Below the pieces are notes generated by a model, which did not search any database, was not told the origin of the DNA, and saw only the letters and a list, made by a program, of their open reading frames with translations. DNA of 64,000 nt from Sporolactobacillus kofuensis (GTDB lineage Bacteria; Bacillota; Bacilli; Bacillales; Sporolactobacillaceae): contig NZ_JAMXWN010000006.1 in NCBI RefSeq assembly GCF_024125425.1, positions 62,001 through 126,000 of the forward strand, written 5' to 3'. Below, piece after piece: positions 1,267-57,172 of this stretch (positions within the stretch are counted from its first letter, which is position 1; each line of letters starts with the position of its first letter). A program made the translations under genes and the position numbers.

Positions 1267-1705
1267 CAATTGGACACAAATTGAGCATTGCCCCAAACTG
1301 AGCGAGGAACGAGCCAAAAACGCAGTTGAATGGGACAATTTTGCACCAGAACGGGACAAAAAGCTAGAGGAATCGGACACAAATCTGGATAAATCGGACA
1401 CAAAATGAGCATTGCCCCAAACTGAGCGAGGAACGAGCCAAAAACGCAGTTGAATGGGACAATTTTGCACCAGAACGGGACAAAGTTGGATCAGAATCGG
1501 ACAAAAATCTGAATAAATCGGACACAAAATGAGCATTGCCCCAAACTGAGCGAGGAACGAGCCGAAAACGCTGTTGGATGGTACAATTCTGCACCAGAAC
1601 GGGACAAAGTTGGATCAGAATCGGACAAAAATCTGAATAAATTGGACACAAAACGAGCGCTGCTCCAGTCTGAGCGAGGAACGAGCCAAAAATGCTGTTG
1701 AATGG
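1267..1705. repeat. 21-bp phased GGACA word array with 124-bp super-period (array A)
   Basis: The word GAAYSGGACA/GGACAMAAA recurs every 21 bp. An anchor, TTGCCCCAAACTGAGCGAG (19 bp), replaces one unit in six, so the higher-order period is 5x21+19 = 124 bp. The GAGC of the segment GAGCATTGCCCC falls at 1283, 1407, 1531 and (degenerate) 1655, exactly 124 apart. The array lies between the convergent transposase and monooxygenase genes. The minus-strand open frames here are a by-product of stop-free repeats. Confidence 0.9.
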
Positions 1706-1758
1706 ACGCCCATTATATGGAGGGCAAAAAGTCCATCTTAATTGACATTAATAGAAAA

Positions 1759-1790
1759 GCGGAGAGAAAAAATTCAACTTTTCTCTCCGC
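1759..1790 (-). terminator. Intrinsic terminator of the monooxygenase gene
   Basis: GCGGAGAGAAAA (1759-1770) pairs perfectly with TTTTCTCTCCGC (1779-1790). On the minus strand the stem is followed by TTTTC. Confidence 0.7.
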
Positions 1791-1902
1791 TTACTGTTAT
1801 TAAGAAGCTTTTGGGACAGCCTCTTTTATGATGAAATGGCCAATTTTATTTCTACTTATTCAAATGCGTTCAGAATATCCGGACATTTAAACTTAGGACA
1901 AA

Positions 1903-2235
1903 TCATGACTGATCAAAGGAATAATCACGTTCAACTTTACTGATCCGCGTAACAAAAGAGGCGTACCAATCGCTCTTTCCTTTTTTCTGAGCCATTCGGT
2001 GCTCCATGTTCGCTTTCCAACTTCGGATCGCCTCGAGTGTCTCCCAATACGAAACCGTGATACCAAGACCGCGTTCATCACGTACGCTCTCTACCCCTAG
2101 GAAGCCAGGCTGCTTACTTGCGAGCTTAACCATCCATTCGGCTGTTTGATTATAGTCTTCTTCATCATTTGCTGTCCGCTTAGATGTGAAAATAACTGCG
2201 TAATACGGTGGCTTTGGTGTTTGTGCAAAAGATAT
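1903..2235 (-). CDS. Antibiotic biosynthesis monooxygenase (ABM) family protein, apparent AUA start
   Basis: About 110 residues. The conserved core reads TPKPPYYAVIFTS...QPGFLGVESVRD...GITVSYW...WKANMEHRMAQKKG...WYASFVTRISKVERDY, typical of YqjZ-like ABM-fold proteins (small dimeric ferredoxin-like barrels; some degrade heme or oxidise quinols). The expected start codon, just before SFAQTPKPPYY, reads ATA (2235-2233) where relatives should have ATG. A good ribosome site (GAGGGGG) sits 8 nt upstream and an in-frame TAA lies just before it, so no normal start exists upstream; the first internal ATG (2133) would remove a third of the fold. Either a rare AUA start, a start-loss pseudogene or a sequencing error. 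It lies 46 bp downstream of the nitroreductase gene, probably in its operon. Confidence 0.75.
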   Translation of the reverse strand: MSFAQTPKPPYYAVIFTSKRTANDEEDYNQTAEWMVKLASKQPGFLGVESVRDERGLGITVSYWETLEAIRSWKANMEHRMAQKKGKSDWYASFVTRISKVERDYSFDQS

Positions 2236-2281
2236 AGGTGCCGCCCCCTCTTATGGCAAGTATTAACGAACCAGGATGTAT

Positions 2282-3031
2282 TTAATAGGTAAAGAGTCCT
2301 TGTCCTTTTAGTGTATCCATCATTTTTTTCTTATTTTCCGATTGCTTTCCACTGACTGCCTTTGCAATCTGATTGGTGAACGTGTCCACCCGACGATTCG
2401 CATCACGAAGATCGTAATATTGATTGACGTCATGATCGTAAGCTTTTAAATCTTCCAATGGATGCTCAGCAGAATGGTATTCATTTTCAAAATAGACGTT
2501 TTCCTGTGGCAAACGCGGCTTTAGTTGTGGTGACTGATTCGGATAACCGATCGCCATTCCGAATGCCGGGAACGTGTACTTCGGCAGCTTCAAGAGGTCA
2601 ATGACCGCTTGTGGATCATTGAGGATACTGCCAAGATAGACAGCGCCTAAACCAAAACTTTCTGCCGCAACGACAATATTCTGTGCGGCAATCACCGTAT
2701 CACTAAACGCTCTGAAGAAGAAATCGGTAGAGCCCAAAATATCCGTTTGCTGGCCCTTGGCCTCTGCAATTTTGGCATTACGATGCAAATCGACTACGAG
2801 CACGAAAAGACGAGCTGCTTCTGCTATGTAATGTTGGTTACCTATTTTTGCTAACGCCTGCTTTTTAGCCGGATCGGTCACATCAATAATTGAATATTGC
2901 TGGAAAAAGTTGCTTGTGGATGCATGTTGTGCAGCACGAATCAGCAAATTTACTTGTTCCTGCGGAATTTGTTGATCAGTGAAACTGCGTATGCTGCGAT
3001 GGTTTAACAGCTGCTTAATCGTTTCGTTCAT
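2282..3031 (-). CDS. NADPH-dependent nitroreductase / flavin reductase, NfsA-FRP type
   Basis: 249 residues, the usual size of NfsA/FRP oxidoreductases. The N-terminal HRSIRSFTDQQIP motif is the FMN-binding signature of the nitroreductase fold. AAQHASTSNFFQQYSIIDV and the long C-terminal half with GLGAVYLGSILND and GMAIGYP are typical of the NfsA branch. It should reduce nitro compounds, quinones or free flavin with NADPH in the cytosol. It is followed 46 bp later by the ABM monooxygenase gene on the same strand, suggesting a small redox operon. Substrate unknown. Confidence 0.88.
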   Translation of the reverse strand: MNETIKQLLNHRSIRSFTDQQIPQEQVNLLIRAAQHASTSNFFQQYSIIDVTDPAKKQALAKIGNQHYIAEAARLFVLVVDLHRNAKIAEAKGQQTDILGSTDFFFRAFSDTVIAAQNIVVAAESFGLGAVYLGSILNDPQAVIDLLKLPKYTFPAFGMAIGYPNQSPQLKPRLPQENVYFENEYHSAEHPLEDLKAYDHDVNQYYDLRDANRRVDTFTNQIAKAVSGKQSENKKKMMDTLKGQGLFTY

Positions 3032-3225
3032 CGTTCACGCTCTACTCCTTTACGTTGTAACTTCAAAAGCTGACCTTTGGGTACCTAACTGCACTGATTA
3101 TAACATTTGCGCATCATAGATTCAGGGGTGGTGTTCGTAAAAGACAAGGGCAATGATTTATTCGGTTTATTCATCAATGGAGTGGTGCAAAAGATTGAAT
3201 ACTTTAAAAAATAACAAAACATATC

Positions 3226-3254
3226 TTGACACTCCATCGTATATTTGTTATAAA
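3226..3254 (+). promoter_or_regulatory. Sigma-A promoter of the araT leader transcript
   Basis: TTGACA (3226-3231), 17-bp spacer, TATAAA (3249-3254). Near-consensus housekeeping promoter about 30 bp before the leader peptide start. Confidence 0.85.
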
Positions 3255-3285
3255 TGTAGTCACTAACTCAAAGGAGTTTTATCTG

Positions 3286-3545: not shown

Positions 3546-3568
3546 CAAATTGGGGAAAAGGGGAACTC

Positions 3569-6243: not shown

Positions 6244-6261
6244 TAGGGGAATAGAAAGTTT

Positions 6262-9228: not shown

Positions 9229-9790
9229 TCGAACCGAATTGTGGCATATCCGAGCCGAATCGGGCCGAATCCGAACCGAATTTCGGTATATCCGAACCGA
9301 ATTTCGGTATATCCGAACCGAATCGTGGCTTACCCGAACCGAATCGTGGCGACCCGAACCGAATCTCGGCATAACCGAACCGAATCGTGGCGAATCCGAA
9401 CCGAATCGTGGCGAATCCGAACCGAATCACGGCATAACCGAACCGAATCCGGCGATCCGAACCGAATCACGGCATAACCGAACCGAATTGCGGCATAACC
9501 GAGCCGAATCACGGCATAACCGAACCGAATTGCGGCTTACCCGAACCGAATCGAGGCTTATCCGAACCGAATTGCGGCATACACGAACCGAATCCGGGGA
9601 TCCGAACCGAATTGCGGCATAACCGAGCCGAATTGGACCGAATCCGAGCCGAATCACGTCATAACCGAACCGAATCGTGACGAATCCGAGCCGAATCACG
9701 GCATACCCGAACCGAATTGCGGCTTAACCGAACCGAATTGGACCGAACCCGAACCGAATGCGGCATTGCTCGACCCGAACCGATCAAATC
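9229..9790. repeat. 21-bp phased CCGAACCGAAT array (array B)
   Basis: About 27 consecutive units of the form CCGAACCGAAT+10, mostly 21 bp long. Two 19-bp units ending GGCGAT and GGGGAT start at 9438 and 9583, 145 bp apart (6x21+19), the same rule as the GGACA arrays plus one unit. All frames on both strands are largely stop-free, which explains several apparent small open frames. The array lies between the NERD gene and levR, both on the plus strand. Confidence 0.9.
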
Positions 9791-9943
9791 TGGCACCCAA
9801 TTTAGCACTTTTCTTATTCTTTTGCCCAATTCTAGATCATTTCGTGATAAAGTAGTTCAAATCGCCTTTAGTAACCGCTTTCATTGTATAATAGAGGATA
9901 AACGATACTTTATGAAGAATTGATTCAGAAGAGGTGGACGAAT

Positions 9944-12757
9944 ATGGGACGGCGACGTGAGAAGATTTACGATGAACTATCTAGACAATGCGCACATTTC
10001 GATAAGAAGACACTGCTAATGAATTCTGGTGTAACGGCTTCTGATCTTGCGGAAGCCTTGGCTATCATGCGCAGCAATGTCAGCTCAGAGCTGAATGCCC
10101 TTGTTCGTGAGAAACGAGTGATCAAGTTTGTCACACGCCCCGTACTGTATGTGCCTGCTGATCTTATTCGTTCGCAATTCGGAGATGTCGTTCATGACTT
10201 TGAAATCAAAGCATCTTCATTGAATGAATTGCTGAATCAAGAGCGTGTTCATGATAAAAATGAGGATCCATTTTCTCATTTGATTGGAGCAGATAAAAGT
10301 CTGAAGAAAAGTGTGAAACAGGCTAAATCAGCGATTGTCTACCCACCGAGAGGACTACATACTTTGATACTCGGACCGACCGGATCAGGGAAAACGCTGT
10401 TTGCGCATATGATGCATAATTATGCGATCTCAATAAAGCGGATTGTTGAAAAGGCGCCGTTTATTGATTTTAACTGTGCTGATTACTACAACAACCCGCA
10501 GCTTCTGATTGGTCAGCTGTTCGGCTACATCAAAGGTGCATTTACCGGTGCCGCGCGCGATCAAGACGGGCTGGTGGCCAAAGCGGACGGAGGAATTTTG
10601 TTTCTCGATGAAATCCACCGTCTGCCGCCGGAAGGTCAGGAAATGCTGTTCTATTTCATGGATACCGGCCGCTACAGTAAGCTTGGCGAGACGGGAAACA
10701 AACGAGAGGCGCATGTTTTGATCATCGGTGCAACAACGGCTGATCCGGAATCGGCACTGCTGCAGACGTTCCTGCGCCGCGTTCCGGTGATGATCAATAT
10801 ACCAAATTTCCAGAGCCGGAGTGTCAGCGAGCAAATTGAGCTGACTAAATTCCTGCTCTCACGCGAAGCTCACCGGACGCATCATAGGTTCCATGTCAGT
10901 GCAGATGTGATCAAAGCACTAATCGGTAGTGTGACCTTCGGTAATATCGGTCAGCTGAAATCCAATGTGCAGCTGATCTGCGCACAAGGGTTTCTGGACA
11001 GTATGAATAATGATTTTGTTCAGCTGGATGCGAAAATGCTGCCTTCAGAAATGCAGGAAGGACTGCATCGTATTTCGCATCAGCCGAAAACGAATCAGCA
11101 GTTAAACAAAGAACTGCCGCTGTTCCTTGTTGTTACAGGAAGCAAGGATCCATTGCTGACGGATATCGATCAGTATGAACCGCCGTTTGATCTTTATAAA
11201 AAGATTTCTGGAAAATACGATTCGCTCACTCAAGAGGGACTGTCTGCACATGATATTCACAAACTAATTACTGAGGACATCAAGGAGCAGCTCAGAAAAT
11301 TTTATCGAAAAACAGCTAAGAATATGCAGAACACTGCTGTGGACCGGCGGATTATGGACCTATCAAAGCACTTCGAAACAATTTGTTCTCAAGTGCTTGG
11401 CGAACACTTAAGCCGGCAATTTGTATCGCTGCTGACCGTTCATCTCTCATCATTTTTGGAACATCCGCAACGCAAGCTGGAGTGTTCGCCTGATATGAAA
11501 CAAACGATGTTCACGTATGCACAGAAAGACTATGAAGCAGCAGGAAAAATAGCGCAGCTCATCGAAGATCAAGTGAAAGTGGCTCTTCCTGAAGTTGAAA
11601 TTGTGTATATTGCCTTTCTGCTCAGTTCATTTGTGGAACTCTCGCAGCAGAAAAACGTCGGCATTGTGGTAGCAGCGCACGGCCCGCATACGGCGAGCTC
11701 GATGGTCAGTGTTGTTAAGGAATTGATGGGCGACTATCCGATCGAGGCCGTAGATATGCCGCTCAGTTTAAATTTCAGCGACATTTTCGATAATATCGTA
11801 CAGGCGGTCAAAATGGTTGATCAAGGTGCAGGGGTACTGATGATGGTGGATATGGGATCCCTCTATTATTTTGAAGAAAAAATAGCTCGAGGTGCAAAAG
11901 TTCGCGTCAAAGCGATTGATATGGTGTCCACACCGATGGTTCTGGATGCCGTCAAGAATGCGAACTATCTTCATATGGACTTAAAAGGGCTCGTCGATTC
12001 GCTTTACAAACTGCGCCGTACTGTTGGTATGGAGCATCAGCAGTCGAGTGGTCAGCGTGAAAAAGCAATTCTCACCATCTGTACAACCGGAAGCGGGATT
12101 GCCAAGCGAATTAAAAATATCGTCAGCATGTATCTTCGCAATGTGACGGATGAAGAAATTACCGTGCTGCCGATCTCAATTGAGGATCTGTACGATACTG
12201 CACAAAAAATGCAGGAGAAATATGAAATTGTAGCCAGTATCGGTGCGAAAAATCCGAAGCTTGAGGGCGTGCCGTATATCACTCTTTCTCAATTTGTCGG
12301 CGGTGAAGGGCAAGAAATTCTCCAATCCATTTTGCAGAACAAAGCGCTGCCGATCAAAGATAATCCATCGCACATTATTGTCAAAGGTGTCTGCGAAGAT
12401 AGTCTGCAGGATATGCTGATGTATCTGAATCCGAAACGGGCAGTGGCTGCTATTCTTGAATTTAATGGTGCCGTGCAAAAAGCACTAAATCTCCACTTCA
12501 AAAATGCAACGCAGATCCGAATCATCATGCATCTTGCTTTTGCGCTTGAACGTGAAGTCGTGCATACACCGTTAAAATACGAAGGGGAGCTTAGCGAGGA
12601 GAAGAAGCAGCTGTTCCGCCAGCTTGAGCCGACACGCCAAGTATTCAATTTTAAATTGAATGTACAAATGAGCGATGGTGAGTTTTATTATTTTATTGAT
12701 ATGCTGATTGATGATTTGGGAAAAAATATACTTCAGTCTCAAGTAGCCCAAATTTAG
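9944..12757 (+). CDS. levR: LevR-type sigma-54-dependent PTS regulator
   Basis: 937 residues in LevR order: N-terminal winged helix; AAA+ domain with Walker A GPTGSGKT (about residue 144), sigma-54 contact loop GAFTGA (about 198) and Walker B GGILFLDEIHRLP (about 219); PRD1 around 450-560; a mannose-class EIIA-like domain (IGIVVAAHGPHTASSM); an EIIB-like region; and a C-terminal PRD2. It activates RNA polymerase-sigma-54 at the PTS operon and is tuned by phosphorylation from HPr and the EII proteins. ATG 9944 is preferred because AAGAGGTGG precedes it. A -24/-12 promoter and repeated upstream sites follow directly, confirming its target. The specific sugar (fructose or mannose) is inferred. 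Confidence 0.92.
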   Translation: MGRRREKIYDELSRQCAHFDKKTLLMNSGVTASDLAEALAIMRSNVSSELNALVREKRVIKFVTRPVLYVPADLIRSQFGDVVHDFEIKASSLNELLNQERVHDKNEDPFSHLIGADKSLKKSVKQAKSAIVYPPRGLHTLILGPTGSGKTLFAHMMHNYAISIKRIVEKAPFIDFNCADYYNNPQLLIGQLFGYIKGAFTGAARDQDGLVAKADGGILFLDEIHRLPPEGQEMLFYFMDTGRYSKLGETGNKREAHVLIIGATTADPESALLQTFLRRVPVMINIPNFQSRSVSEQIELTKFLLSREAHRTHHRFHVSADVIKALIGSVTFGNIGQLKSNVQLICAQGFLDSMNNDFVQLDAKMLPSEMQEGLHRISHQPKTNQQLNKELPLFLVVTGSKDPLLTDIDQYEPPFDLYKKISGKYDSLTQEGLSAHDIHKLITEDIKEQLRKFYRKTAKNMQNTAVDRRIMDLSKHFETICSQVLGEHLSRQFVSLLTVHLSSFLEHPQRKLECSPDMKQTMFTYAQKDYEAAGKIAQLIEDQVKVALPEVEIVYIAFLLSSFVELSQQKNVGIVVAAHGPHTASSMVSVVKELMGDYPIEAVDMPLSLNFSDIFDNIVQAVKMVDQGAGVLMMVDMGSLYYFEEKIARGAKVRVKAIDMVSTPMVLDAVKNANYLHMDLKGLVDSLYKLRRTVGMEHQQSSGQREKAILTICTTGSGIAKRIKNIVSMYLRNVTDEEITVLPISIEDLYDTAQKMQEKYEIVASIGAKNPKLEGVPYITLSQFVGGEGQEILQSILQNKALPIKDNPSHIIVKGVCEDSLQDMLMYLNPKRAVAAILEFNGAVQKALNLHFKNATQIRIIMHLAFALEREVVHTPLKYEGELSEEKKQLFRQLEPTRQVFNFKLNVQMSDGEFYYFIDMLIDDLGKNILQSQVAQI

Positions 12758-12870
12758 TGTGTTGTTTCCTAGTATATTATCAAATTAGTGTTTTGTTTGG
12801 AAACGTTTCAGACATTAGTGAATTATAAAAAGAAATAGTGTTTCATCTTTACCAATTAGTGTGTTGGTTT
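12754..12870 (+). promoter_or_regulatory. Candidate LevR upstream activating sites
   Basis: Direct repeats TTAGTGTGTTGTTT (12754), TTAGTGTTTTGTTT (12785), ATAGTGTTTCATC (12835) and TTAGTGTGTTGGTTT (12856), 70-200 bp upstream of the sigma-54 promoter, the usual distance for enhancer-like activator sites. Confidence 0.6.
12797..12811. promoter_or_regulatory. Candidate cre site (CcpA)
   Basis: TTGGAAACGTTTCAG region, a near-palindrome close to the catabolite-responsive element consensus, between the LevR repeats. Suggests glucose repression of the PTS operon. Confidence 0.6.
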
Positions 12871-12899
12871 TAAAAATCAGTTCATTCAAACATCTGTTT

Positions 12900-12928
12900 A
12901 AGAGCCTTTTGGGGGCTCTTTTTTTTTT
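12900..12928 (+). terminator. Terminator of levR
   Basis: AAGAGCC (12900-12906) pairs with GGCTCTT (12914-12920), followed by nine or ten T residues. It separates levR from the sigma-54 promoter. Confidence 0.85.
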
Positions 12929-12939
12929 AACACACAAAA

Positions 12940-12956
12940 TTGGCACGGGAATTGCT
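12940..12956 (+). promoter_or_regulatory. Sigma-54 (-24/-12) promoter of the PTS operon
   Basis: TTGGCACGGGAATTGCT matches TGGCAC-N5-TTGC exactly. It drives the four EII genes. rpoN is not in the window. Confidence 0.92.
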
Positions 12957-12992
12957 TATATAAAAGTGTACAGAGAGAAAGGAGGGTAAAAA

Positions 12993-13930: not shown

Positions 13931-13957
13931 CAACAGAATAAAGGGAGGGTTTTCAGC

Positions 13958-14758: not shown

Positions 14759-14772
14759 GGAGGGTGAAGAAC

Positions 14773-15609: not shown

Positions 15610-15685
15610 TTTAAGGAATAACAGAAGTAGGCGCATCATTTGATGATGAATGAGACTTTTTGGAGAACGGCTAGGAGGGGTTTTT

Positions 15686-20035: not shown

Positions 20036-20116
20036 AAAAATGACCTACTGTGAGTCGCGCGAAACGGAATCAAACGTGTGCGAAACCCACTGGAACGTGC
20101 GCGCGAAATGTCCAAA
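20036..20116. repeat. Short 21-bp phased GCGAAA array (array C)
   Basis: GCGAAACGGAATCAAACGTGT and GCGAAACCCACTGGAACGTGC are each 21 bp and are followed by GCGCGAAATG. It lies just beyond the MarR operon terminator. Confidence 0.6.
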
Positions 20117-28044: not shown

Positions 28045-28242
28045 GAATAATCTCCTTTACCCGATAGCTTACCTAGAGCTATTATAACGAACTCGTCTAT
28101 GAAATTGGACCATCAGGTTCTGCTTTATCACTGACCGAATCGGTGATACTGGAATGGGGAAAGGTGCTCAGATAAAGTGAGGACAAGACGATGACAAGGA
28201 GGGGAAAGCGCATGAAAAAAGACATTGCGCTTGGCCAGAACT

Positions 28243-28366
28243 GGATATGTGCATGAGATTCAAAAAGTCGCGCATAGAACAAGATATTTCGCGCATTGGA
28301 TCCACATTTTTGCACATTAATCCAGAAATTTCGCGCATAAGCTGTAGCCAGGTCCGCATATGTACT
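28243..28366. repeat. 21-bp phased GCGCAT array (array D)
   Basis: GTGCAT, GCGCAT, GCGCAT, GCACAT, GCGCAT, CCGCAT recur at 21-22 bp intervals (four exact 21-bp units). Contains CATTGGATCCACATTTTTGC (28294-28313), which also occurs in arrays at 41193 and 46664. Immediately downstream of the HxlR gene. Confidence 0.85.
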
Positions 28367-34683: not shown

Positions 34684-34715
34684 AAGTTTTCTCTAATAAT
34701 AGAGAAAGCTTTTTT
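34684..34715 (+). terminator. Terminator of namA
   Basis: GTTTTCTCTA and TAGAGAAAGC form an imperfect stem followed by a T run. Confidence 0.65.
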
Positions 34716-34730: not shown

Positions 34731-34818
34731 AGTAACGATTACCCAAATTCGTAACGAACAAACCAAATCGTAACGAACCCTGAAAAAATGGTAACGAACA
34801 AAGAAAAAGTAGTAACCA
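34731..34818. repeat. Short phased GTAACGAAC array (array E)
   Basis: GTAACGATT, GTAACGAAC, GTAACGAAC, GTAACGAAC, GTAACCATC start at successive intervals of 19, 19, 21 and 21 bp, directly after the namA terminator. Bases 34819-35037 contain only a spurious frame and the ribosome site of the next gene. Confidence 0.75.
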
Positions 34819-35037
34819 TCCGATTGAGACACTCCACCGCAACCTCCAGCATCGAACATTTTCATCTCAATCGACCAATTTTCGTTGTGGTGATTTTAGA
34901 AAAAATGCGGTTTGTAATGAATAAATCGAGCAATACTATCATTGGTGAAATGAACGAGGACGTGGAACGTACATTTCTTTAAGACAAGGAGGCCTTATCA
35001 CTTTTAGAAAATTGGTTCTTGAAGGAGTATGTTAGGA

Positions 35038-38107: not shown

Positions 38108-38138
38108 GAAGCTGCTCAACCTTGGGCAGCTTCTTTTT
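38108..38138 (+). terminator. Terminator of the permease gene
   Basis: GAAGCTGC pairs with GCAGCTTC, then TTTTT. Confidence 0.9.
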
Positions 38139-38149: not shown

Positions 38150-39352
38150 GTCGGGCACAATGAGACAAAATGGTGGCCAGGCTGGACAATTAATAAAGAG
38201 AATCTGACACAAACGTGGAGAAACGTGACCAAAACGTGGACGGATCGGATACAGATGCAGAGGAACGGGCCAAAAACAACTTGGAATGGGACAAAACAGG
38301 CTAGGAATGGGACAAAAAGCGAGAAGAACCGGACAAAAGAGGAACAATGCCCCAGTTTGAGTCTGGGAGCAGGACAAAAAAGCATAGGAACGGGCCAAAA
38401 ACAATTTGGAATGTGCCAAAAACGAATTGGAATGGGACAAAAAGCGAGAAGAACCGGACAAAAGAGTAACAATGCCCCAGTTTGAGTCTGGAGCAGGACA
38501 AAAAAGCATAGGAACAGGCCAAAAACAATTTGGAATGGGACAAAACAGGCTAGGAATCGGACAAAAGAGGAACAATGCCCCAGTTTGAGTCTGGAGCAGG
38601 ACAAAAAAGCATAGGAACAGGCCAAAAACAATTTGGAATGTGCCAAAAACGAATTGGAATGGGACAAAAAGCGAGAAGAACCGGACAAAAGAGTAACAAT
38701 GCCCCAGTTTGAGTCTGGAGCAGGACAAAAAAGCATAGGAACAGACCAAAAACAACTTGGAATGGGACAAAACAGGCTAGGAATGGGACAAAAAGCGAGA
38801 AGAACCGGACAAAAGAGGAACAATGCCCCAGTTTGAGTCTGGAGCAGGACAAAAAAGTATAGGAACGGGCCAAAAACGAATTGGAATCGGACAAAACAGG
38901 CTAGGAATGGGACAAAAAGCGAGAAGAACCGGACAAAAGAGGAACAATGCCCCAGTTTGAGTCTGGAACAGGACAAAAAAGCAGAGGAATGTGCCAAAAA
39001 CGAATTGGAATGGGACAAAACAGGCTAGGAATGGGACAAAAAGCGAGAAGAACCGGACAAAAGAGGAACAATGCCCCAGTTTGAGTCTGGAGCAGGACAA
39101 AAAAGCATAGGAACGGGCCAAAAACAACTTGGAATGGGACAAAACAGGCTAGGAATGGGACAAAAAGCGAGAAGAACCGGACAAAAGAGGAACAATGCCC
39201 CAGTTTGAGTCTGGAGCAGGACAAAAAAGCATAGGAACGGGCCAAAAACAATTTGGAATGGGACAAAAAAGCATAGGAACGGGCCAAAAACGAATTGGAA
39301 TGGGACAAAACAGGCTAGGAATCGGACAAAGCGTCAACCGAATCAGACAAAT
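38150..39352. repeat. Large 21-bp phased GGACA array with 124-bp super-period (array F)
   Basis: About 1.2 kb of units GGAAYGGGACAAAA+7, each 21 bp. The ATGCCCCAGTTTGAGTCT segment (a 19-bp unit) recurs with its TGCCCC at 38348, 38473, 38576, 38700, 38824, 38948, 39072 and 39196, spacings 125, 103, 124, 124, 124, 124 and 124; 103 is 124 minus one unit. Long minus-strand open frames (up to 300 codons) arise because the repeat lacks stops. Lies between the permease terminator and trpB. Bases 39353-39558 hold the presumed trpB promoter region only. Confidence 0.95.
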
Positions 39353-41145: not shown

Positions 41146-41268
41146 TTTGCGCATTAGATCATGAATATTGCGCATTGGTCTTATTTATCGTGCATTGGAT
41201 CCACATTTTTGCGCATAGAACTGAGGATTGCGCGCATGGACCTTAGCCTTATTGATTTGCGCATGAGT
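41146..41268. repeat. Phased GCGCAT array (array G)
   Basis: GCGCAT-type words at intervals of 21, 20, 21, 21 and 27 bp. Contains CATTGGATCCACATTTTTGC (41193-41212), shared with arrays D and H. Lies beyond the terminator of the minus-strand hydrolase gene. Confidence 0.85.
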
Positions 41269-46586: not shown

Positions 46587-46616
46587 AACCGCATGGTATA
46601 GCCATGCGGTTTTTTG
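46587..46616 (+). terminator. Terminator of lemA-htpX
   Basis: AACCGCATGG, short loop, CCATGCGGTT and six T. Confidence 0.9.
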
Positions 46617-46715
46617 TGCGCGGATTAGGCCAGGGTTAATGCGCGAAATGTCTGGTTTAATGCGCAAAAATGTGGATCCAATGTGCGAAAAATCGAGATC
46701 AATGCGCATATCGAT
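46615..46715. repeat. 21-bp phased ATGCGC array (array H)
   Basis: Three exact 21-bp units beginning ATGCGC or ATGTGC, bounded by further GCGC words. Contains the reverse complement of CATTGGATCCACATTTTTGC at 46664-46683. Directly after the htpX terminator; opposite orientation to arrays D and G. Confidence 0.85.
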
Positions 46716-47031: not shown

Positions 47032-47176
47032 GAGTAAGGCGCATCAGCAGAATCAATGCTGATTAAGAAGAGGACATGCGTTAACCGAAGCCACAAATAG
47101 AGAGAAGCAAGCTCAAAGAGGTTTGTTCAGTTTCGGAAGAGCGTGTTCTTCAAAAATGCAACAGGGAGAGGTATAC

Positions 47177-48637
47177 ATGATGATGGGAAAACTCGTAAAA
47201 CAGACCGCTGCTGTCGCATTGGCTACAACGTTCTTGTTTGGCAGCACGGGGCATGTGTCGGCAAAGCAAAGTGATGATTTGGGCTATGACAAATCTTATG
47301 GACTCTCACATCTCACACGATTCGATATGAGTAAAATTTCGGATCAGCAGGAAGATGAGCGATTCCAAGTGCCGGAATTCGATGAATCAACAATAGAGAA
47401 TCTACCGTCAGCAGTCGGTAAAAATAAAGATGGAAATGACATTGATCTAGATGTTTGGGACAGCTGGCCTCTGCAAAATGCGGATGGAACAGTTGCCAAT
47501 TATAAAGGCTATACTATAGTTTTCGCACTTGCCGGTGATCCCAAAGTAAGCAATGATACGTTCATCTATCTGTTCTACCAAAAGAAAGGTGAAACATCCA
47601 TTGATAGCTGGAAGAATGCCGGTAAAGTATTTAAGGCGGATGATCACCTGAATGCGAACGATCCGATTCTGAAAAACCAGGCGGAAGAATGGTCCGGATC
47701 AGCAACACTAACTTCGGACGGCAATGTACGGCTTTTCTATACTGACCGTCACCCAATGGATGAAAGCAACAAGCTTTATGGAAAACAAACCTTGACGACG
47801 GCACAAATTAATCTTTCTCAACCGGACGCGGATACGTTAAAGGTAGACGGTATCGAAGATTTGAAGTCGATTTTTGACGGGGACGGCAAATACTATCAGA
47901 CGGTAGACCAATTTGTAGCTGGTGATAAGTCTGCGGATAACCACACATTACGTGATCCGCATTATGTTGAAGATAATGGGCATAAATACCTCGTTTTTGA
48001 AGCAAACACCGGAACCGAAGTCGGTTATCAAGGTGATGATCAGCTGAATAATCGCGCCTATTACGGCGGGAACTTGAACTTCTTCCAAAAAGAACGAAAA
48101 GCATTACTGAACAGCTCGAAGAAGAATCTTGCATCCTTTGCTAATGGTGCATTAGGCATTATCGAGCTGAACGATGATTATACGTTGAAAAAAGTAATGA
48201 AGCCGTTGCTCACTTCGAATACGGTAACCGATGAAATTGAACGCGCAAATGTGTTCAAGAAGAACGGAAAATGGTATCTCTTTACCGATTCACGTGGAGC
48301 GAAAATGACTGTGGACGGCATTGGCGACAAAGACGTGTATATGCTCGGGTTTGTCTCGAACGCACTCACCGGAACCTACCACCCACTTAACGGTAGCGGG
48401 CTCGTGTTGCACATGGATCTCGATCAGAGCGATGTCACTTGGACGTATTCTCATTTTGCAATTCCGCAAACAAAGGGAAACAAAGTCGTGATTACAAGCT
48501 ATATGACCAACAGAGGGACATTTGATGACCATCATGCAACGTTCGCACCAAGCTTCCTTGTAAACCTTCAAGGCTCGAGAACATCGGTGGTTCCAGATCG
48601 TACTCTGGATCAAGGTCAGCTGACTGTCGAAGATTGA
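47177..48637 (+). CDS. sacB: Secreted levansucrase (GH68)
   Basis: 486 residues. Signal peptide with basic start, hydrophobic core and likely cleavage after HVSA. The GH68 residues are visible: VWDSWPLQ (nucleophile Asp), TLRDPHYVED (RDP motif) and EIERANVFKKNGKWYLFTDSRG (acid/base Glu). Transfers fructose from sucrose to build levan and releases glucose, outside the cell. ATG 47177 follows GGGAGAGG; upstream in-frame codons lack a ribosome site. Shares transcription with levB, separated by a hairpin. Confidence 0.95.
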   Translation: MMMGKLVKQTAAVALATTFLFGSTGHVSAKQSDDLGYDKSYGLSHLTRFDMSKISDQQEDERFQVPEFDESTIENLPSAVGKNKDGNDIDLDVWDSWPLQNADGTVANYKGYTIVFALAGDPKVSNDTFIYLFYQKKGETSIDSWKNAGKVFKADDHLNANDPILKNQAEEWSGSATLTSDGNVRLFYTDRHPMDESNKLYGKQTLTTAQINLSQPDADTLKVDGIEDLKSIFDGDGKYYQTVDQFVAGDKSADNHTLRDPHYVEDNGHKYLVFEANTGTEVGYQGDDQLNNRAYYGGNLNFFQKERKALLNSSKKNLASFANGALGIIELNDDYTLKKVMKPLLTSNTVTDEIERANVFKKNGKWYLFTDSRGAKMTVDGIGDKDVYMLGFVSNALTGTYHPLNGSGLVLHMDLDQSDVTWTYSHFAIPQTKGNKVVITSYMTNRGTFDDHHATFAPSFLVNLQGSRTSVVPDRTLDQGQLTVED

Positions 48638-48657
48638 AATTAATAGCAAGAATTGTA

Positions 48658-48692
48658 GAAAATGTCGAGAATATGCGACATTTTCTTTTTTT
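48658..48692 (+). terminator. Hairpin between sacB and levB
   Basis: GAAAATGTCG (48658-48667) and CGACATTTTC (48676-48685) pair perfectly, followed by seven T. A partial terminator would lower levB expression relative to sacB. Confidence 0.8.
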
Positions 48693-48750
48693 ATGGGCAT
48701 TTTATGTAAGGATGGAGAGGCATCACGGATTCATTTGGAGGGTTATACAC

Positions 48751-50307
48751 GTGGAATTGAAAAAGAAATTTTTTGTAGTAGTCAGCCTCGTCACGCTGAG
48801 TTTGCTCATTTTAACCATCATTATTTTATTCTCCGGATTGTTCCAACCAAAGGAAAAACCAGTGATAGAAAAAAAGAAGCAGACGTATCGATCGGTTTAT
48901 CATTTTACCGTTCCGGATAAGTGGATGAATGATCCACAGCGGCCAATTTATTTTAACGGATATTATCACTACTATTACCTGTACAATCGTGATTATCCAA
49001 AAGGAAACGGGACGGAGTGGCGCCATGCGATCTCCAAGGATCTCATTCATTGGAAAGATGAAGGCGTGGCAATTCCGAAATATACAAACAAAAACGGTGA
49101 TATTTGGACAGGTTCGGTTGTCCGCGACGTGCACAACACTGCGGGCTTAGGAAAGCATGCGTTGGTCGCGATTGTGACACAACCGCCGGCAAATGGTGAC
49201 CAAGAACAGTTTCTTTGGTATAGCTCGAATCAAGGAAAAACATTTAAGAACTATGGTGATGATCCTGTGTTGCCGAATCCGGGAGTTAAGGATTTTAGAG
49301 ATCCGAAAATTATTTGGGATGCCGAGCGCAACCAATGGATCATGCTGCTTGCTGAAGGAGCAAAGATTGGCTTTTACACATCGAACAATTTAAAAGAATG
49401 GCAGTATGTCAGTGGCTTTTTTACTCAGAATATTGGTATTGTCGAATGCCCGGATCTCTTTCAGCTGCGTGCCGATGATGGAAAGGTCAAGTGGGTACTC
49501 GGCGCAAGTGCAAACGGAAAGGCAGCCGGATTGCCGAACACGTATGCCTACTGGACAGGCAGCTTTGATGGGAAAACGTTTAAGCCTGATAATGAGGAAC
49601 CCCAATGGCTCGATCATGGCTTTGACTGGTATGCAGGCGTCACGTTTGAAGATGGCCGCGCTTCGGATAAGTTGAAGGCACGCTATGCGATTGCCTGGAT
49701 GAATAATTGGGATTATCCGAATAACACGCCAACGTTGAAAGAAGATTTCAACGGGGCGAATTCGATTGTACGCCGGATTCGGTTGATCCATCGGGCTGGG
49801 CAATACAGCTTGGCATCACAGCCACTTCCTGGTTTAGAGAAAATGACGGAGTCAACGAAACGTTTGGATACGCAACATGTGGAAGGAGTCAAGACACTTG
49901 ATGTGCAAGGGGACGCCTATCAGCTTGATGCCGATCTTTCCTGGTCAGATGCACAAAATGTCGGACTCAGACTACGCGAATCCAAAGACAAAACGCGGCA
50001 TATTGATGTCGGTGTTTTTGTAAAAGGTGGCTACATCTACGTGAATCGTGCGTTCACCGGCCAACCAGATAAAAGTAACAAAAGTGTAGAAAGTCGAGTT
50101 GCGATTCCTTCCGATAAAAAACAGGTTCATCTGAAAATTTTCGTCGACAAGACCAGCATCGAAGTATTTGTCGATGATGGGCAAACCGTTTTTAGCGATG
50201 AAGTATTTCCACATCTTAACGACCAAGGAATCAGCTTATTTTCCGAAGGCGGAACGAGCACATTTAAAACTATTGAGATAAAAAAATTCCGATCAATCCT
50301 GCAATAA
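48751..50307 (+). CDS. levB: Membrane-anchored or secreted levanase, LevB-like (GH32)
   Basis: 518 residues, close to the Bacillus LevB length (about 516). N-terminal membrane segment FFVVVSLVTLSLLILTIIILFSG. GH32 motifs: KWMNDPQRP (nucleophile Asp), DFRDPKI, and VECPDLFQL (acid/base Glu); a C-terminal beta-sandwich ends with FVDKTSIEVFVDDG. LevB is an endolevanase releasing levanbiose. GTG 48751 follows GGAGGG. The sacB-levB order is the same as in Bacillus subtilis. Confidence 0.92.
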   Translation: MELKKKFFVVVSLVTLSLLILTIIILFSGLFQPKEKPVIEKKKQTYRSVYHFTVPDKWMNDPQRPIYFNGYYHYYYLYNRDYPKGNGTEWRHAISKDLIHWKDEGVAIPKYTNKNGDIWTGSVVRDVHNTAGLGKHALVAIVTQPPANGDQEQFLWYSSNQGKTFKNYGDDPVLPNPGVKDFRDPKIIWDAERNQWIMLLAEGAKIGFYTSNNLKEWQYVSGFFTQNIGIVECPDLFQLRADDGKVKWVLGASANGKAAGLPNTYAYWTGSFDGKTFKPDNEEPQWLDHGFDWYAGVTFEDGRASDKLKARYAIAWMNNWDYPNNTPTLKEDFNGANSIVRRIRLIHRAGQYSLASQPLPGLEKMTESTKRLDTQHVEGVKTLDVQGDAYQLDADLSWSDAQNVGLRLRESKDKTRHIDVGVFVKGGYIYVNRAFTGQPDKSNKSVESRVAIPSDKKQVHLKIFVDKTSIEVFVDDGQTVFSDEVFPHLNDQGISLFSEGGTSTFKTIEIKKFRSILQ

Positions 50308-50377: not shown

Positions 50378-50735
50378 ATGAAAAAGTGTCCGATTCAGCT
50401 TGGTTTTTGTCCTGTTCGGAGTGAAAAGTGTCCGGTTCGATCACGTTTTTGTCCGCTTCCGAAGCATTATTGTCCTGTTCTGCCCGACTTGTCCGGTTCG
50501 GCCTGATTAGTGTCTGATTCCGCTTGATTTTTGTCCTGTTCGGAGTGAAAAGTGTCCGGTTCGATCACGTTTTTGTCCGATTCCGTAGCATTATTGTCCC
50601 GTTCCGTCCGACTTGTCCGGTTCGGAGTGAAAAGTGTCCGAATCCGATTAATAATTGTCCCGTTCGGCATCATTTTTGTCCGGTTCCACCTCATTTGTGT
50701 CTCCTTCTCGCGATAATTTGTCCCAATCCTAATCG
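50378..50735. repeat. 21-bp phased TGTCC array with 124-bp super-period (array I)
   Basis: Seventeen or so TGTCCNNTTC units, each 21 bp, with two 19-bp units (starting 50471 and 50595) exactly 124 bp apart. Complementary orientation to arrays A and F (TGTCC is GGACA reversed). Between convergent levB and the NCS1 permease. Confidence 0.93.
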
Positions 50736-50752
50736 GCCGCAAAATGAAAATC

Positions 50753-50788
50753 AAAAAGAGCTGTGGGCGCATCACCCCACAGCTCTTT
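50753..50788 (-). terminator. Terminator of the NCS1 permease gene
   Basis: AAAGAGCTGTGGG and CCCACAGCTCTTT pair; a T-rich tail follows on the minus strand. Nearly identical to the terminator at 57184. Confidence 0.88.
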
Positions 50789-50829: not shown

Positions 50830-52266
50830 TTATTTTGCAGGGGAAACTTCCCGCACTTTTGTTTTATTTTCTGTATTTCTCATCAGCAGCGCATAGATGA
50901 TAAACCCGGCTCCGACGCCAAGAAACCATGAATAAGAATAAAGAGGTTTAAGCGTTGGAACAAATAAACCGATTAGAGAAATAATCGTTCCGACTGCCAT
51001 CGCAATCAACGCGCTGTAATTCCATCCGTGGCTATACGAATACTCACTGTCTTTTAAATAAAAGCTGTTAATTTCGTAATGCCGATGGTGTACGATATAA
51101 AAATCGGCAAACATAATTCCAGCGACAGGGCCAAGGGCGCCACCGACAGCTCCCATAACCGTGAGAATTACGCCGGCATTATTGAACCATAACCAAGGAA
51201 CAAAGAATAGGGAGAGAATAATAGATATATTTCCGGCTTTCACAAAGTTTAACTTTTTAGGGAAAAGGTTAACTAAGTCGTAACCGGGTGAAACAACATT
51301 TCCTGCAATATTGACGGACAAGGTAATGATAATCAATGCGATTGCTCCGAAAAATAGAAGAAATGGGTTATCAAATTTTTGTAGTAATGTAACTGGGTTC
51401 CAAATAGCTTTTCCAAATGCAACAACTGTACCAGAAGTAGTAATGATGCTCATTAGCGCAAAGGCAATTGCGGTACCGGGCAAACCAATAAACTGGCCAA
51501 CTGCCTGGTCCTTCTGGCTACGCGTAAAACGAGTGAAATCGGAAATATTCAGAACTAATGTTGCCCAAACACCAACAAGTCCTGTAACGGAAACTGGGAA
51601 TATGGTCCAAAATTGTGATGAAGATAATTTGCTCGGCTGTTCGAAAAGCGGTCCTAAACCATGGGACACATTAATGGACCAAATGACTAAGATGATACCT
51701 AGTATGATGACCAAAGGTCCTGCCCAAAGCTCAAAAATCTTAATGCGATGCATTCCTTTGGAAACAATCCACATGTGTAGGAGCCAGAAAAGAACAACTG
51801 CAATGGCACTGTTCAGACCCATACCGACGAGATGAAACTTTGATAAACCGTTCCATCCGGGGATCAGTGCACCAAATATAGCATTTACAGCGGCACTCCC
51901 TGCGTAGGCCTGAACGGCGAACCAAAAAATGGCAACAAATGCGCGTAAGACAACAGGAATATGCGCTGCTTTATGACCAAAGGCAGCTCGGATAATTACC
52001 GGGAATGGAATGCCGTATTTTCCACCAACGACACTATTCAACCACATCGCACTGATAAGAACTATATTAGCGATAATGACAGCGGATAATGCTTGCCAGA
52101 CACTCATGCCTAACATGATTAAGCTTCCTGCAGTTTCCCAAGCAACGATATTATGAATCATGCCCATCCAAATCGTTGTAAAATTTATCCACGTCCATGT
52201 TTTATGTTCTTTTTTCACTGGAGCGAGGTCGTAATTATAAAGGCTAGGATCGTATTTAGTTTCCAA
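50830..52266 (-). CDS. NCS1-family permease (purine/pyrimidine/hydantoin/allantoin type)
   Basis: 478 residues, 12 membrane segments. Start region NYDLAPVKKEHKTWTWINFTTIWMGMIHN and the GIPFPVIIRAAFG motif are NCS1 hallmarks. Such proteins import nucleobases, hydantoins, allantoin or thiamine precursors with sodium or protons. An operator identical in core to one upstream of the amidohydrolase gene lies in front (52468), linking it to the catabolic genes. Confidence 0.92.
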   Translation of the reverse strand: METKYDPSLYNYDLAPVKKEHKTWTWINFTTIWMGMIHNIVAWETAGSLIMLGMSVWQALSAVIIANIVLISAMWLNSVVGGKYGIPFPVIIRAAFGHKAAHIPVVLRAFVAIFWFAVQAYAGSAAVNAIFGALIPGWNGLSKFHLVGMGLNSAIAVVLFWLLHMWIVSKGMHRIKIFELWAGPLVIILGIILVIWSINVSHGLGPLFEQPSKLSSSQFWTIFPVSVTGLVGVWATLVLNISDFTRFTRSQKDQAVGQFIGLPGTAIAFALMSIITTSGTVVAFGKAIWNPVTLLQKFDNPFLLFFGAIALIIITLSVNIAGNVVSPGYDLVNLFPKKLNFVKAGNISIILSLFFVPWLWFNNAGVILTVMGAVGGALGPVAGIMFADFYIVHHRHYEINSFYLKDSEYSYSHGWNYSALIAMAVGTIISLIGLFVPTLKPLYSYSWFLGVGAGFIIYALLMRNTENKTKVREVSPAK

Positions 52267-55440: not shown

Positions 55441-55469
55441 TCGCTCATCTCCTAGTTACTGCTGATTGG

Positions 55470-56672
55470 TCAAATGATCTTATGCCCATTTTTGTAGGAA
55501 CAAATGACGCGTGGCCGGTCTAATAAAACATTACGGAGGTTATTCGCGTCCAAGAGCACTAGGTCAGCGAGTCCACCTTCATATATGCCATAGTGTTCTA
55601 AGCCCAGCGCTTTAGCAGATTGATAGGTCATCATGTCTAGAATTGTCTCTGCATCCTGGGAAGTCCCCATCTGTGTCACTTCAGCAAATAAATAAGCAAT
55701 ATCAAGGATGTTCCCTGTGCCAAAAGGCGTAAATGGATTTTGAATATTATTTGTTGCAAAAATAACATTGGCCTGCTCATTCAGCAAAGTTTTTACGGGT
55801 GTTAGGCCTCGTCTGATTTTTTCCTTATCCTGGCGCCCGTTAATATAGAGATCAGTTGCTGGAAGAGCAACGACATGAATGCCAGCATCGGCTATCTGTT
55901 TAGCTATATCGCGTGCTTGATTATGATCGACCGAACCTAAGGAAGTCATATGCGCAACCGTTACGTTGTTTTCAAAGTGATTGTCCTTGGTGCGTTTGAT
56001 GATATCTAAAATTGAAAGATCTTCAGGATTATCAGAATCATCAATATGAATATCCATGGGTTTTCCATATTTTTCTGCAAGATTGAAGATAAAATCGAGG
56101 TGTTCTGTTTGATCTCGATCATTATAAGGGATGCCCCCAACAACATCTGCACCCATTTTTAATGATTCTTCCATTAGCGCTGCTCCATTTTTTTGAATGA
56201 AGATACCCTCTTGAGGGAAGACAACAATCTGAATCGTGATTTTACTTTTATATTTTTCTTTCAACGCCATAATGGTTTCCATGGCGCTTAAATTTAATAG
56301 ATCATCGACTTCTACCTGAGCCCGTAAGTTAGTTACGCCACTTTGGATGCTTTTTTCAATGACACGAGTAGCTCGCTCTGTCATATCTTCCTTTGTAAAC
56401 GATTTTTTTAAAGCAGCTGTCATTTGGATTGCTTCTTGTAATGAATGGGCATCTGTATCCATTTTTTCGAGTAGATAGGCTTTTTCCAGATGAATATGTG
56501 ATTCATTGAATCCAGGCAGTACAACATGCCCTCCGGCTTCAATAATTTGTTTTACCGGAGGAATGGAAGCACCAGTTTCATTTATGTACGTAATGGTCCC
56601 ATTTTCTATTCCTATATCGATATTCGTAAGGTAATGCAGACTTTTTGCATTATGAAAAAGTAGATCCAGCAT
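55470..56672 (-). CDS. Amidohydrolase (cytosine deaminase / AtzC-like)
   Basis: 400 residues. Metal ligands: PGFNESHIHLEKAYLL (HxH), DIHIDDSDNPED (His) and NVTVAHMTSLGS (His). The region expected to hold the final Asp reads FATNNIQNPFTP rather than the SDN of CodA, so the deaminase chemistry may differ. Related to CodA and N-isopropylammelide hydrolases that remove amines from N-heterocycles. ATG 56672 follows GGAGG; the first in-frame codon is a TTG six bases earlier. Confidence 0.85.
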   Translation of the reverse strand: MLDLLFHNAKSLHYLTNIDIGIENGTITYINETGASIPPVKQIIEAGGHVVLPGFNESHIHLEKAYLLEKMDTDAHSLQEAIQMTAALKKSFTKEDMTERATRVIEKSIQSGVTNLRAQVEVDDLLNLSAMETIMALKEKYKSKITIQIVVFPQEGIFIQKNGAALMEESLKMGADVVGGIPYNDRDQTEHLDFIFNLAEKYGKPMDIHIDDSDNPEDLSILDIIKRTKDNHFENNVTVAHMTSLGSVDHNQARDIAKQIADAGIHVVALPATDLYINGRQDKEKIRRGLTPVKTLLNEQANVIFATNNIQNPFTPFGTGNILDIAYLFAEVTQMGTSQDAETILDMMTYQSAKALGLEHYGIYEGGLADLVLLDANNLRNVLLDRPRVICSYKNGHKII

Positions 56673-56791
56673 AATCAATCCTCCACTCTATTTTTTTCAC
56701 GTATAAGCACGTGTTTTGAACGATTTAACCAATTGCGGCGTTCTTCATCTTTCACTCACTGAAAGAAGTAAGGGAAGGTTAAATTCCAAAC

Positions 56792-56811
56792 TGGCAATAC
56801 CGGTCATACCA
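56792..56811. promoter_or_regulatory. GntR operator 2
   Basis: TGGCAATACCGGTCATACCA, inside a longer palindrome AAACTGG...CCAGTTT, about 120 bp upstream of the amidohydrolase gene. Same frame and core as operator 1. Confidence 0.85.
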
Positions 56812-56949
56812 GTTTATGATTCATAGTTTATCACGATAACGTTAAAGATGTTCTGAGTATGTCGGATTTTCTAACATAAAAAGAATGAGTTTATGAAAAA
56901 AGCACATTGAAAAATATTGGGTTCAAAGAGTTCCGATCAATCCTCGAGG

Positions 56950-57172
56950 CATGTAAGCATCCGGAAAAAAAGCGTCTTAATCCGGAAAAAGTTGTCCGAA
57001 TCCGGGAAAAGAGCGTCTTAATCCGGAAAAAAGTTAGCCGAATCCGGGAAAAGAGTGTCTTAATTCGGGGAAAAGTTAGCTGAATCTGGGAAAAGAGCGT
57101 CTTAATCCGGAAAAAAGTAGAGCGTCTTAATCCGGCAAAAAGTTAGCCGAATCTGGGAAAAGAGTGTTCGGG
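56950..57172. repeat. 21-bp phased AATCCGGRAAAA array (array J)
   Basis: About ten units beginning AATCCGG/AATCTGG and ending GTCTT or GCCG in alternation, mostly 21 bp (one 20 and one 25). Sits beyond the M16 gene terminator on the minus strand. Confidence 0.85.

Follow-up and report, generated by a model that had tools for sequence, protein, structure and literature searches.

Polar rows of short sequence words at a 20- or 21-bp step in intergenic spacers of Sporolactobacillus and related genomes

The window analysed here, a stretch of 64,000 nucleotides from Sporolactobacillus kofuensis, holds at ten intergenic places short sequence words that recur for the most part every 21 bp (Table 1). 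Specifically, GGACA is common to arrays A, F and I (on the opposite strand in I), and GCGCAT to arrays D, G and H (on the opposite strand in H), the latter three sharing a near-identical unit. Arrays A, F and I also contain a 124-bp super-unit (5 × 21 + 19 bp) that accounts for their 19-bp steps, and block duplication is plainly the source of many of the window arrays. A family scan of the 20 proteins that flank the ten arrays returned enzymes, transporters, peptidases, a transposase, MarR, HxlR and sigma-54 regulators, and one protein without a family. The gene caller places the arrays outside genes, and no reading frame survives their 19- and 20-bp steps or their 124-bp units; coding heptad repeats were rejected for the window arrays on these grounds, in agreement with the non-coding reading of a preliminary description of this DNA.

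Table 1. Word arrays and adjoining terminator-like hairpins in the window
Feature	Position	Strand	Description
Array A	1268..1705	+	GGACA, 12 exact copies; steps of 21, gaps of 61 and 82; 124-bp super-unit × 3.5
Array B	9230..9774	+	CCGAACCGAAT word, about 26 units; steps of 21, some of 20 and 19
Array C	20059..20108	+	GCGAAA × 3; steps of 21 and 23; not significant after look-elsewhere (P = 0.18)
Array D	28208..28362	+	GCGCAT, 8 copies (at most 1 mismatch); steps of 19, 22, then 21 × 5
Terminator-like hairpin and T run	34687..34715	+	Separates the FMN-oxidoreductase gene from array E; by eye, missed by the automatic caller
Array E	34732..34822	+	GTAAC(GAAC), 5 copies; steps of 19, 19, 21, 21
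Terminator-like hairpin and T run	38108..38138	+	Separates the amino-acid permease gene from array F; by eye, missed by the automatic caller
Array F	38165..39340	+	GGACA/GGCCA word, 33 exact GGACA; 124-bp super-units
Array G	41147..41265	+	GCGCAT, 5 exact copies; in a convergent spacer
Terminator-like hairpin and T run	46589..46615	+	Separates the M48 peptidase gene from array H; by eye, missed by the automatic caller
Array H	46635..46712	-	GCGCAT on the minus strand, 4 copies (at most 1 mismatch); steps of 21 × 3
Array I	50382..50738	-	GGACA on minus (TGTCC on plus), 18 copies (at most 1 mismatch); steps of 21 and 19
Terminator-like hairpin	50756..50787	-	Of the permease gene 50830-52266; adjoins array I
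Array J	56959..57165	+	AATCCGG / GCCGAATC word; 42-bp double unit; 10 copies (at most 1 mismatch)
Terminator-like hairpin	57193..57223	-	Of the M16C peptidase gene 57237-60227; adjoins array J

Compared with Markov shuffles in which dinucleotide content is preserved on average (n = 300, allowing for look-elsewhere across lags 12–45), the recurrence at lag 21 is significant in nine of the ten arrays. None of the 300 shuffles reached the signal of arrays A, B, F, I or J, and P was 0.003 for D and E, 0.010 for H and 0.023 for G. The words named in the preliminary description are present at all ten places and its observation of a recurring 21-bp spacing is thus confirmed, except at 20.0 kb (array C), where the recurrence of the three copies is not significant. 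The same period characterizes the spacers of the genome at large, the check that had been proposed: in a sample of 728,189 of its 2,962,024 bases (373 spacers), observed over expected recurrence peaks at lags 21 (2.39) and 42 (2.04), with values of 1.30 at lag 40, 1.26 at lag 19, 1.16–1.27 at lags 9–12, and 1.03–1.12 at lags 18, 20, 22 and 24. As for related species, the ratio at lag 21 is 2.30 in 22 sequences of the genus and 3.85 in six of Terrilactibacillus. It falls to 1.31 in six sequences representing other genera of the family, and to 1.05 in 18 that represent the order's other families. Arrays built on other words occur in congeners, in Terrilactibacillus and in further genomes of the order.

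To call the words unrelated, as was done at the outset, is too strong, as words are shared between arrays and a CGAA core recurs across word families. Of 41 array loci, 20 carry 0.6 or more copies of this core per 21 bp, a 4.0-fold excess over the spacer background (45 arrays, nine of them added by hand, in part from the preliminary description, were merged into the 41 loci); when a template common to all words was sought among the array loci, the CGAA core alone stood out. An order-wide scan for CGAA at 21 bp was positive in 111 of 249 genomes, an overcount because coding heptad repeats explain part of it: of 30 loci taken as examples from as many genomes, 11 fall inside called genes and 19 outside, with L205 and L206 of the latter crossed by long open frames. 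The reversed word (AAGC at 21 bp), used as a control, was positive in roughly 75 of these 249 genomes when counted by hand, mostly with one or two matches, and with tens of matches in G046, G055, G057, G091, G125, G228 and G250. Across the phylum, 24 of 398 genomes were positive, three of them among the seven from this order, and the matches listed from outside the order appear by eye to be coding-like or 7-bp simple repeats, G352, G438 and G640 excepted.

It is informative to examine the step itself. Single steps over 46 arrays number 495 of 21 bp, 88 of 20, 33 of 19, 11 of 22, three of 18 and one of 23. The preliminary description held that the word changes and the spacing does not; one step for different words is indeed what is seen, but the spacing does change, in that one word family recurs at 20 bp and 19-bp steps are common in this genome (24, against 107 of 21 bp). 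Rather, the step seems to be a property of the word: all 24 single steps of ATTCCGCGAAA are 21 bp, and 63 of the 64 of TATAGCGAAAA are 20 bp, the remaining one being 19, although these regions were preselected from lists of 20- or 21-bp matches and the contrast is partly built in. Independent of this preselection, none of the matches listed for genome G104 (10 of 19 at 21 bp, 3 of 3 at 20 bp) mixes word and step. In the order-wide CGAA scan a 20-bp step was found in 46 of the 249 genomes and a 22-bp step in five; this comparison, which replaces an earlier spacing control in 24 genomes chosen for their 21-bp matches, is a fair one, whereas a 22-bp step cannot fairly serve as a coding control for the 21-bp one, 21 being a multiple of three. 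A pure 10.5-bp two-turn rule would permit 22 as readily as 20, and the scarcity of 22 counts against simple phasing. The interpretation first proposed is partly supported: site-like words at a near-constant step would fit phased protein binding.

The division of each unit into word and filler is clearest in genome G186, which contains 62 exact copies of the 11-mer ATACAGCGAAA in 2.7 Mb, against three of the reversed control. Fifty-nine of the copies lie within 13 arrays, on one strand per array, at intervals of 21 bp (32 times), 42 (nine), 63 (three), 62 (one) and 41 (one), the last two being 1 bp short of a multiple of 21; of the three single copies, two inspected by eye look coding. In six of the 13 arrays (43 in-frame units), the 11-bp word carries 1.26–2.0 bits per position and the 10-bp filler 0.03–0.57, near random, the word profile being slightly inflated since units outside the outermost exact words were taken at 7 of 11 matches. 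In the same six arrays, filler identity is 0.33 within arrays and 0.29 between them, and a similarity of 80% or more is reached by 5 of 134 pairs of fillers from one array. Because the words hardly vary and the fillers bear little resemblance to one another, slippage alone fails as an explanation, as had been argued from the window. Genomes G104 and G134 are built similarly, and G023, G235 and G105 retain more filler signal. Copy number is narrow as well: 26 arrays in three genomes average 6.4 units (s.d. 1.2), with 24 of the 26 having five to eight.

The arrays lie in spacers, and more often than expected beyond a terminator. Of 70 array-facing genes, 28 are separated from the array by a terminator, where length-matched spacers without arrays predict 14.0 (P = 0.0001; L262 and L270, where arrays overlap a called gene, are omitted); earlier counts with unmatched stretch lengths gave 33/78 versus 183/771 and 29/71 versus 166/771, the latter including L270. 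Furthermore, array orientation tends to follow replication. With the origin set from dnaA, the leading strand carries the word in all six arrays of G025, all nine of G138 and six of the eight of G215, that is, in 21 of 23, an array near the presumed terminus of G215 having been counted against. Isolated places with three CGAA and no common word were excluded before this count, some against the trend (G025 at 1194261 and 2087513; G138 at 446135 and 590618) and others in favor (G138 at 2641286; G215 at 198006 and 2836747).

These observations suggest that the arrays are probably phased, directional sites at which lineage-specific DNA-binding proteins would assemble between operons. In each site a word of about 11 bp, close to one turn of the helix, would precede a largely free filler of 9–10 bp, bringing successive sites to almost the same face of the helix. 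A sequence-specific protein, which would differ from lineage to lineage in identity or in tuning, may place one protomer on each unit, with neighboring protomers touching to form a short polar nucleoprotein patch; this putative cooperative assembly would span mostly five to eight units (about 100–170 bp) in the three well-resolved genomes, and patches in Sporolactobacillus and Terrilactibacillus could grow much longer through duplication of multi-unit blocks. As the arrays lie between transcription units, and beyond terminators more often than expected, a boundary would be a likely, though speculative, role: the arrays might halt read-through or anchor supercoiled domains at their ends.

The main rival is that the arrays are a functionless satellite, produced by slippage, unequal exchange and copying between spacers and tolerated past terminators, with a step set by the duplication mechanism. 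We regard this as unlikely. In its favor are the duplicated 124-bp blocks of A, F and I, the unit common to D, G and H, the very long arrays of Terrilactibacillus (up to 83 word copies), and a replication-linked orientation bias of the kind expected of a replication-linked process. Turnover points the same way, and its speed is odd for a conserved function. One array of G215 finds no room in any of the 15 other species of its genus (51–141 bp between matched flanks versus about 390), and in 14 congeners the spacer next to array J contains either different words or nothing, indicative of empty sites and word replacement. Decay, however, should hit word and filler equally, which is not what G186 displays, and neither the narrow copy number in three genomes nor the word-specific steps (in regions preselected at 20 or 21 bp) are readily accommodated. 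In the block copies of A, F and I the conserved phases also vary less (20 of 696 cells versus 31 of 463, P = 0.003), a result of little weight given a crude alignment, poor for A, and cells that are not independent.

It is also worth considering that the word might be bound in RNA, the arrays being transcribed as 3′ extensions or by read-through. Among the tandem spacers of G025, G138 and G215 whose flanks are clear, 10 of 11 have the word on the gene strand, and arrays D and H are equally oriented to their flanking genes. In the convergent spacers of the same three genomes, however, orientation follows replication in 6 of 7 (these flanking-gene counts omit L262, L270 and L267; L265 is divergent), the CGAA strand of array J opposes both neighboring genes, and the automatic caller, over 71 array-facing genes, places the terminator before the array only in 28, after it only in three, on both sides in one and nowhere in 39. 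RNA structure is not needed, because folding z-scores in seven arrays range from -1.9 to +0.9, and a strict DNA-like step is unexpected of flexible RNA; an RNA-level element is therefore improbable. Chi, KOPS and DNA uptake words raise another prospect, that of polar words read along the DNA (Chi, KOPS/SRS or uptake type) in lineage dialects and oriented with the leading strand. Such words are scattered as single copies, Chi and KOPS being strand-biased along replication, and uptake words measure about 10–12 bp, a length similar to that of the words here. Lineage dialects, as in the arrays, are known among DNA uptake sequences of Neisseriaceae (PMC3630211). The leading-strand placement in 21 of 23 arrays and the match between the CGAA strand and the local GC skew (23 of 30) speak for this reading. 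Yet in G186, the one genome so profiled, words are almost never single (3 of 62) and keep to multiples of 21 bp, orientations in G239 are mixed (6 of 10 places agree with replication), and agreement of the CGAA strand with the local gene majority in the sampled sequences is weak (10 of 16); we give it very little credence.

Several known systems share features with the arrays. CRISPR repeats, of about 23–47 bp, are separated by spacers of similar length, and the arrays likewise join a constant repeat to a variable filler of constant length; their 11-bp word and 9–10-bp filler are nonetheless far too short, their loci are many and dispersed, and no Cas family occurs among the 20 window proteins next to the ten arrays. 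REP and BIME elements are found as many palindromic, folding copies between operons near terminators, a setting that the arrays share, but the arrays are short direct repeats with filler, and the seven that were folded show no stable structure. In iterons and parC-type centromeres, direct repeats about two turns apart each take one protein unit in a polar assembly. The step histogram of the arrays shows direct repeats at a like spacing, although the arrays occupy many chromosomal spacers, their words differ within one genome, and the same family scan returned no Rep or Par family beside the ten arrays. In systems of this type binding specificity differs between relatives (PMC9426499). The intergenic TAACTGA of Beggiatoaceae, heptamer direct repeats without filler (PMC4679880), differs from the word and variable filler at 20–21 bp seen here, as do simple head-to-tail heptanucleotide repeats, given the nearly unrelated fillers of G186.

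No description of such arrays was found in the literature searched, with subscription papers mostly outside its reach. It is possible, and we propose it tentatively, that they represent an undescribed, order-wide class of chromosomal element. Each would be a polar row of some six or seven words particular to its lineage, at a strict step of 20 or 21 bp per word, read by a putative fast-evolving family of array-forming proteins that would build replication-oriented nucleoprotein boundaries between operons. A conserved word, a free filler and a strict step provide a ready assay, with one short probe per species and spacing mutants as controls. Were the arrays instead a neutral satellite, a duplication mechanism with a 20–21-bp step that spares an 11-bp word would be needed, which would be equally unexpected. 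If they bind proteins, the word dialects imply a rapidly changing protein partner, and many Bacillus-like genomes would hold a layer of chromosome organization that is invisible to annotation.

The window lies on contig C40 of a draft genome totalling 2.96 Mb. One window protein has its nearest named relatives in Sporolactobacillus (84% and 82% identity), with Terrilactibacillus next. The words listed in the preliminary description are present at all ten places that it named (arrays A to J, at 1.3, 9.2, 20.0, 28.2, 34.7, 38.2, 41.1, 46.6, 50.4, and 57.0 kb), a word being a repeated motif of about 11 bp that is parted from the next by 9–10 bp of filler. The proposed 21-bp recurrence rises above shuffled sequence, with any lag from 12 to 45 allowed, in nine of these arrays but not in the three-copy array C at 20.0 kb. 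Tandem Repeats Finder returned a 21-bp row for seven arrays (A, B, E, F, H, I, and J) and an additional 124-bp unit for three (A, F, and I). The words, which had been said to change from array to array, do differ among groups of arrays, but GGACA is common to A, F, and I, and GCGCAT to D, G, and H. The latter three also hold a stretch that looks as though it had been copied from spacer to spacer (table). The insertion sequence next to array A may have landed in or beside that array, and the five genes after the LevR-like activator may, judged by position only, be its PTS operon.

Coordinates of features in the window and in two other sequences
Feature	Location	Remarks
GGATCCACATTTTTGCGCAT stretch, array D	window 28298–28317	one base different
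GGATCCACATTTTTGCGCAT stretch, array G	window 41197–41216	
GGATCCACATTTTTGCGCAT stretch, array H	window 46660–46679	complement
Transposase with rve domains	window 3–1208	presumably IS3-type; stop about 60 bp from array A
LevR-like sigma-54 activator with PRD and EIIA-man domains, then five co-directed genes	window 9920–16063	
Levansucrase (GH68), then GH32 fructanase	window 47123–50307	
Pair of arrays whose words, TTATTACCGAAT and TTCTATGAGCTATT, are unrelated	L193:1480–1700	back to back in a single spacer, both about 21 bp
M16C peptidase gene, Terrilactibacillus genome G018	G018:C1:773517–776395	matched in four pieces; adjoins a long array

The genome-wide excess at 21 bp that the preliminary description anticipated was borne out in a sample of 41 pieces (728,189 of 2,962,024 bases, the window included), in which genes were masked by a purpose-written codon-based caller tried on the window and the 373 spacers with a length of 70 bp or more were kept. 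Specifically, the observed/expected ratio was 2.39 at lag 21 and 2.04 at lag 42, with weaker excess at lags 40 (1.30), 19 (1.26), and 9–12 (1.16–1.27) and ratios of 1.03–1.12 at lags 18, 20, 22, and 24. The significant top lag was 21 in eleven spacers and 42 in three, and no other single value came top in more than two. Arrays are denser near the window than in the rest of the sample. When an identical 5-mer occurring three times at 21 bp was taken as a cluster, the sample contained 24, of which the window accounted for 7 and the two pieces on its right for 6; by eye, several clusters, one in the window among them, are coding.

The build of the arrays is clearest in genome G186, where ATACAGCGAAA was found 62 times (reversed control, 3). 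Thirteen arrays account for 59 of these copies, spaced by multiples of 21 bp except for two intervals that are 1 bp short. When every in-frame unit of six of these arrays was profiled, imperfect words included, information content was 1.26–2.0 bits at each word position and 0.03–0.57 bits at each of the ten positions of filler. Filler identity was hardly higher within arrays (0.33) than between them (0.29), although 5 of 134 within-array filler pairs were at least 80% alike. It is possible that the arrays are a satellite without function: they turn over fast, and some were plainly made by block duplication. However, duplication followed by neutral decay would not be expected to yield the pattern of G186, where a near-constant word stands against near-unrelated filler. 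G104 and G134 share this build, and G023, G235, and G105 retain more filler signal. Furthermore, in G104 and its congener G235, in regions chosen from period-specific match lists, one word takes single steps of 21 bp in 24 of 24 cases and another takes 20 bp in 63 of 64. The 26 arrays of G186, G104, and G235 have 6.4 ± 1.2 units, a tighter spread than a geometric distribution would give (P=0.002); as a caveat, the G104 and G235 lists required four units, and a contig end cuts one array. Across 46 recurrence-found arrays, the steps were 21 bp (495), 20 (88), 19 (33), 22 (11), 18 (3), and 23 (1), the detector having taken single steps of 18–23 so that values outside are unfairly sampled; intervals of 10–17 (59) and 24–32 (31) in the same arrays come from overlapping or missed words. 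A word and a step that are both held, filler under little constraint, and a step characteristic of the word are how sites for a cooperative protein would look, and on these features we read the arrays as putative binding sites of such a protein. Our searches of an open-access library turned up no description of such arrays. G105, of the same genus as G186, has 20-bp spacing with AATTARGCGAAA-like units.

The turnover is apparent among relatives. The spacer 3′ of the M16C peptidase gene, which holds array J in the window, has strong arrays with different words in 4 of 14 congeners (GTAAC in G012 and G003, TTCGG in G011, TTTAC in G010), a weak signal in three (G013, G002, and G007), and none in seven. 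The assembly quality of the Terrilactibacillus genome G018 is doubtful, as its match to this gene is in four pieces, its dnaA match contains TAA, and it has 75% completeness and 10% contamination. Likewise, one array of genome G215 lies between a terminator and the following gene; each of the other 15 species in its genus has both flanks matched, with 51–141 bp between them versus about 390 in G215, and no array is present in the six of these spacers that were read (L281, L298, L285, L300, L291, and L295).

The lag-21 ratio was 2.30 in the genus (22 sequences), 3.85 in Terrilactibacillus (6), 1.31 in other genera of the Sporolactobacillaceae (6), and 1.05 in other families of the Bacillales (18). 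It was 1.40 in 62 more distant sequences, where other multiples of three were also raised and lag 21 was topmost in four spacers: a clear array of AATGRGCGAAT ×5 directly past a terminator in Bacillus sp. MM2020_1 (L101), and three that are chance-like or coding-like. Four copies of CGAA, a core of several word families, recur at an exact 21-bp step in 111 of the 249 genomes scanned from the order, a count inflated by coding repeats since 21 is a multiple of three. Among 30 example loci, one per genome, 11 lie inside called genes and 19 outside, and the control with the reversed word AAGC matched at 21 bp in about 75 of the 249 by hand count. The contrast between 20 bp (46 of 249) and 22 bp (5 of 249) is unaffected by this inflation. 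Across the phylum, 24 of 398 genomes matched, three of these among the own order's seven, and the matches outside it, among those listed, are mostly coding-like or simple-repeat-like. Tens of AAGC matches at 21 bp occur in G046, G055, G057, G091, G125, G228, and G250, which possibly hold further word families.

When dnaA is taken to mark the origin, all 6 arrays of G025, 6 of 8 of G215, and, among the matches listed, 9 of 9 of G138 have the word on the leading strand. One of these G025 arrays (L262) and one of these G138 arrays (L270) overlap a called gene, all but one of the counted G138 arrays were read as sequence, and isolated three-CGAA places lacking a common word were excluded (four against, three for). 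Orientation is mixed in G239 (6 of 10 places agree with replication), and the one array of G146 has CGAA on the lagging strand and purines on the leading strand. In convergent spacers, where the flanking genes give no preferred direction, the arrays follow replication in 6 of 7 cases, and in tandem spacers they follow the genes in 10 of 11. Over all samples, the strand bearing CGAA matches GC skew in 23 of 30 cases and the direction of most local genes in 10 of 16. Orientation by replication is thus a tendency, strong in some genomes.

It is also worth considering where the arrays lie. The 44 arrays with two flanking genes, some of which occupy one spacer jointly, fall into 12 convergent, 28 tandem, and 4 divergent settings, compared with 122, 566, and 181 among all 869 spacers. 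A terminator-like hairpin separates 28 of 70 facing genes from the array, where length-matched spacers without arrays give an expectation of 14.0 (P=0.0001). In the unmatched count of 71 facing genes, hairpins were called only before the array in 28, only after it in 3, on both sides in 1, and nowhere in 39, with a caller that misses some, for example those before arrays E, F, and H. Our guess from this location is that the arrays have a boundary role between operons.
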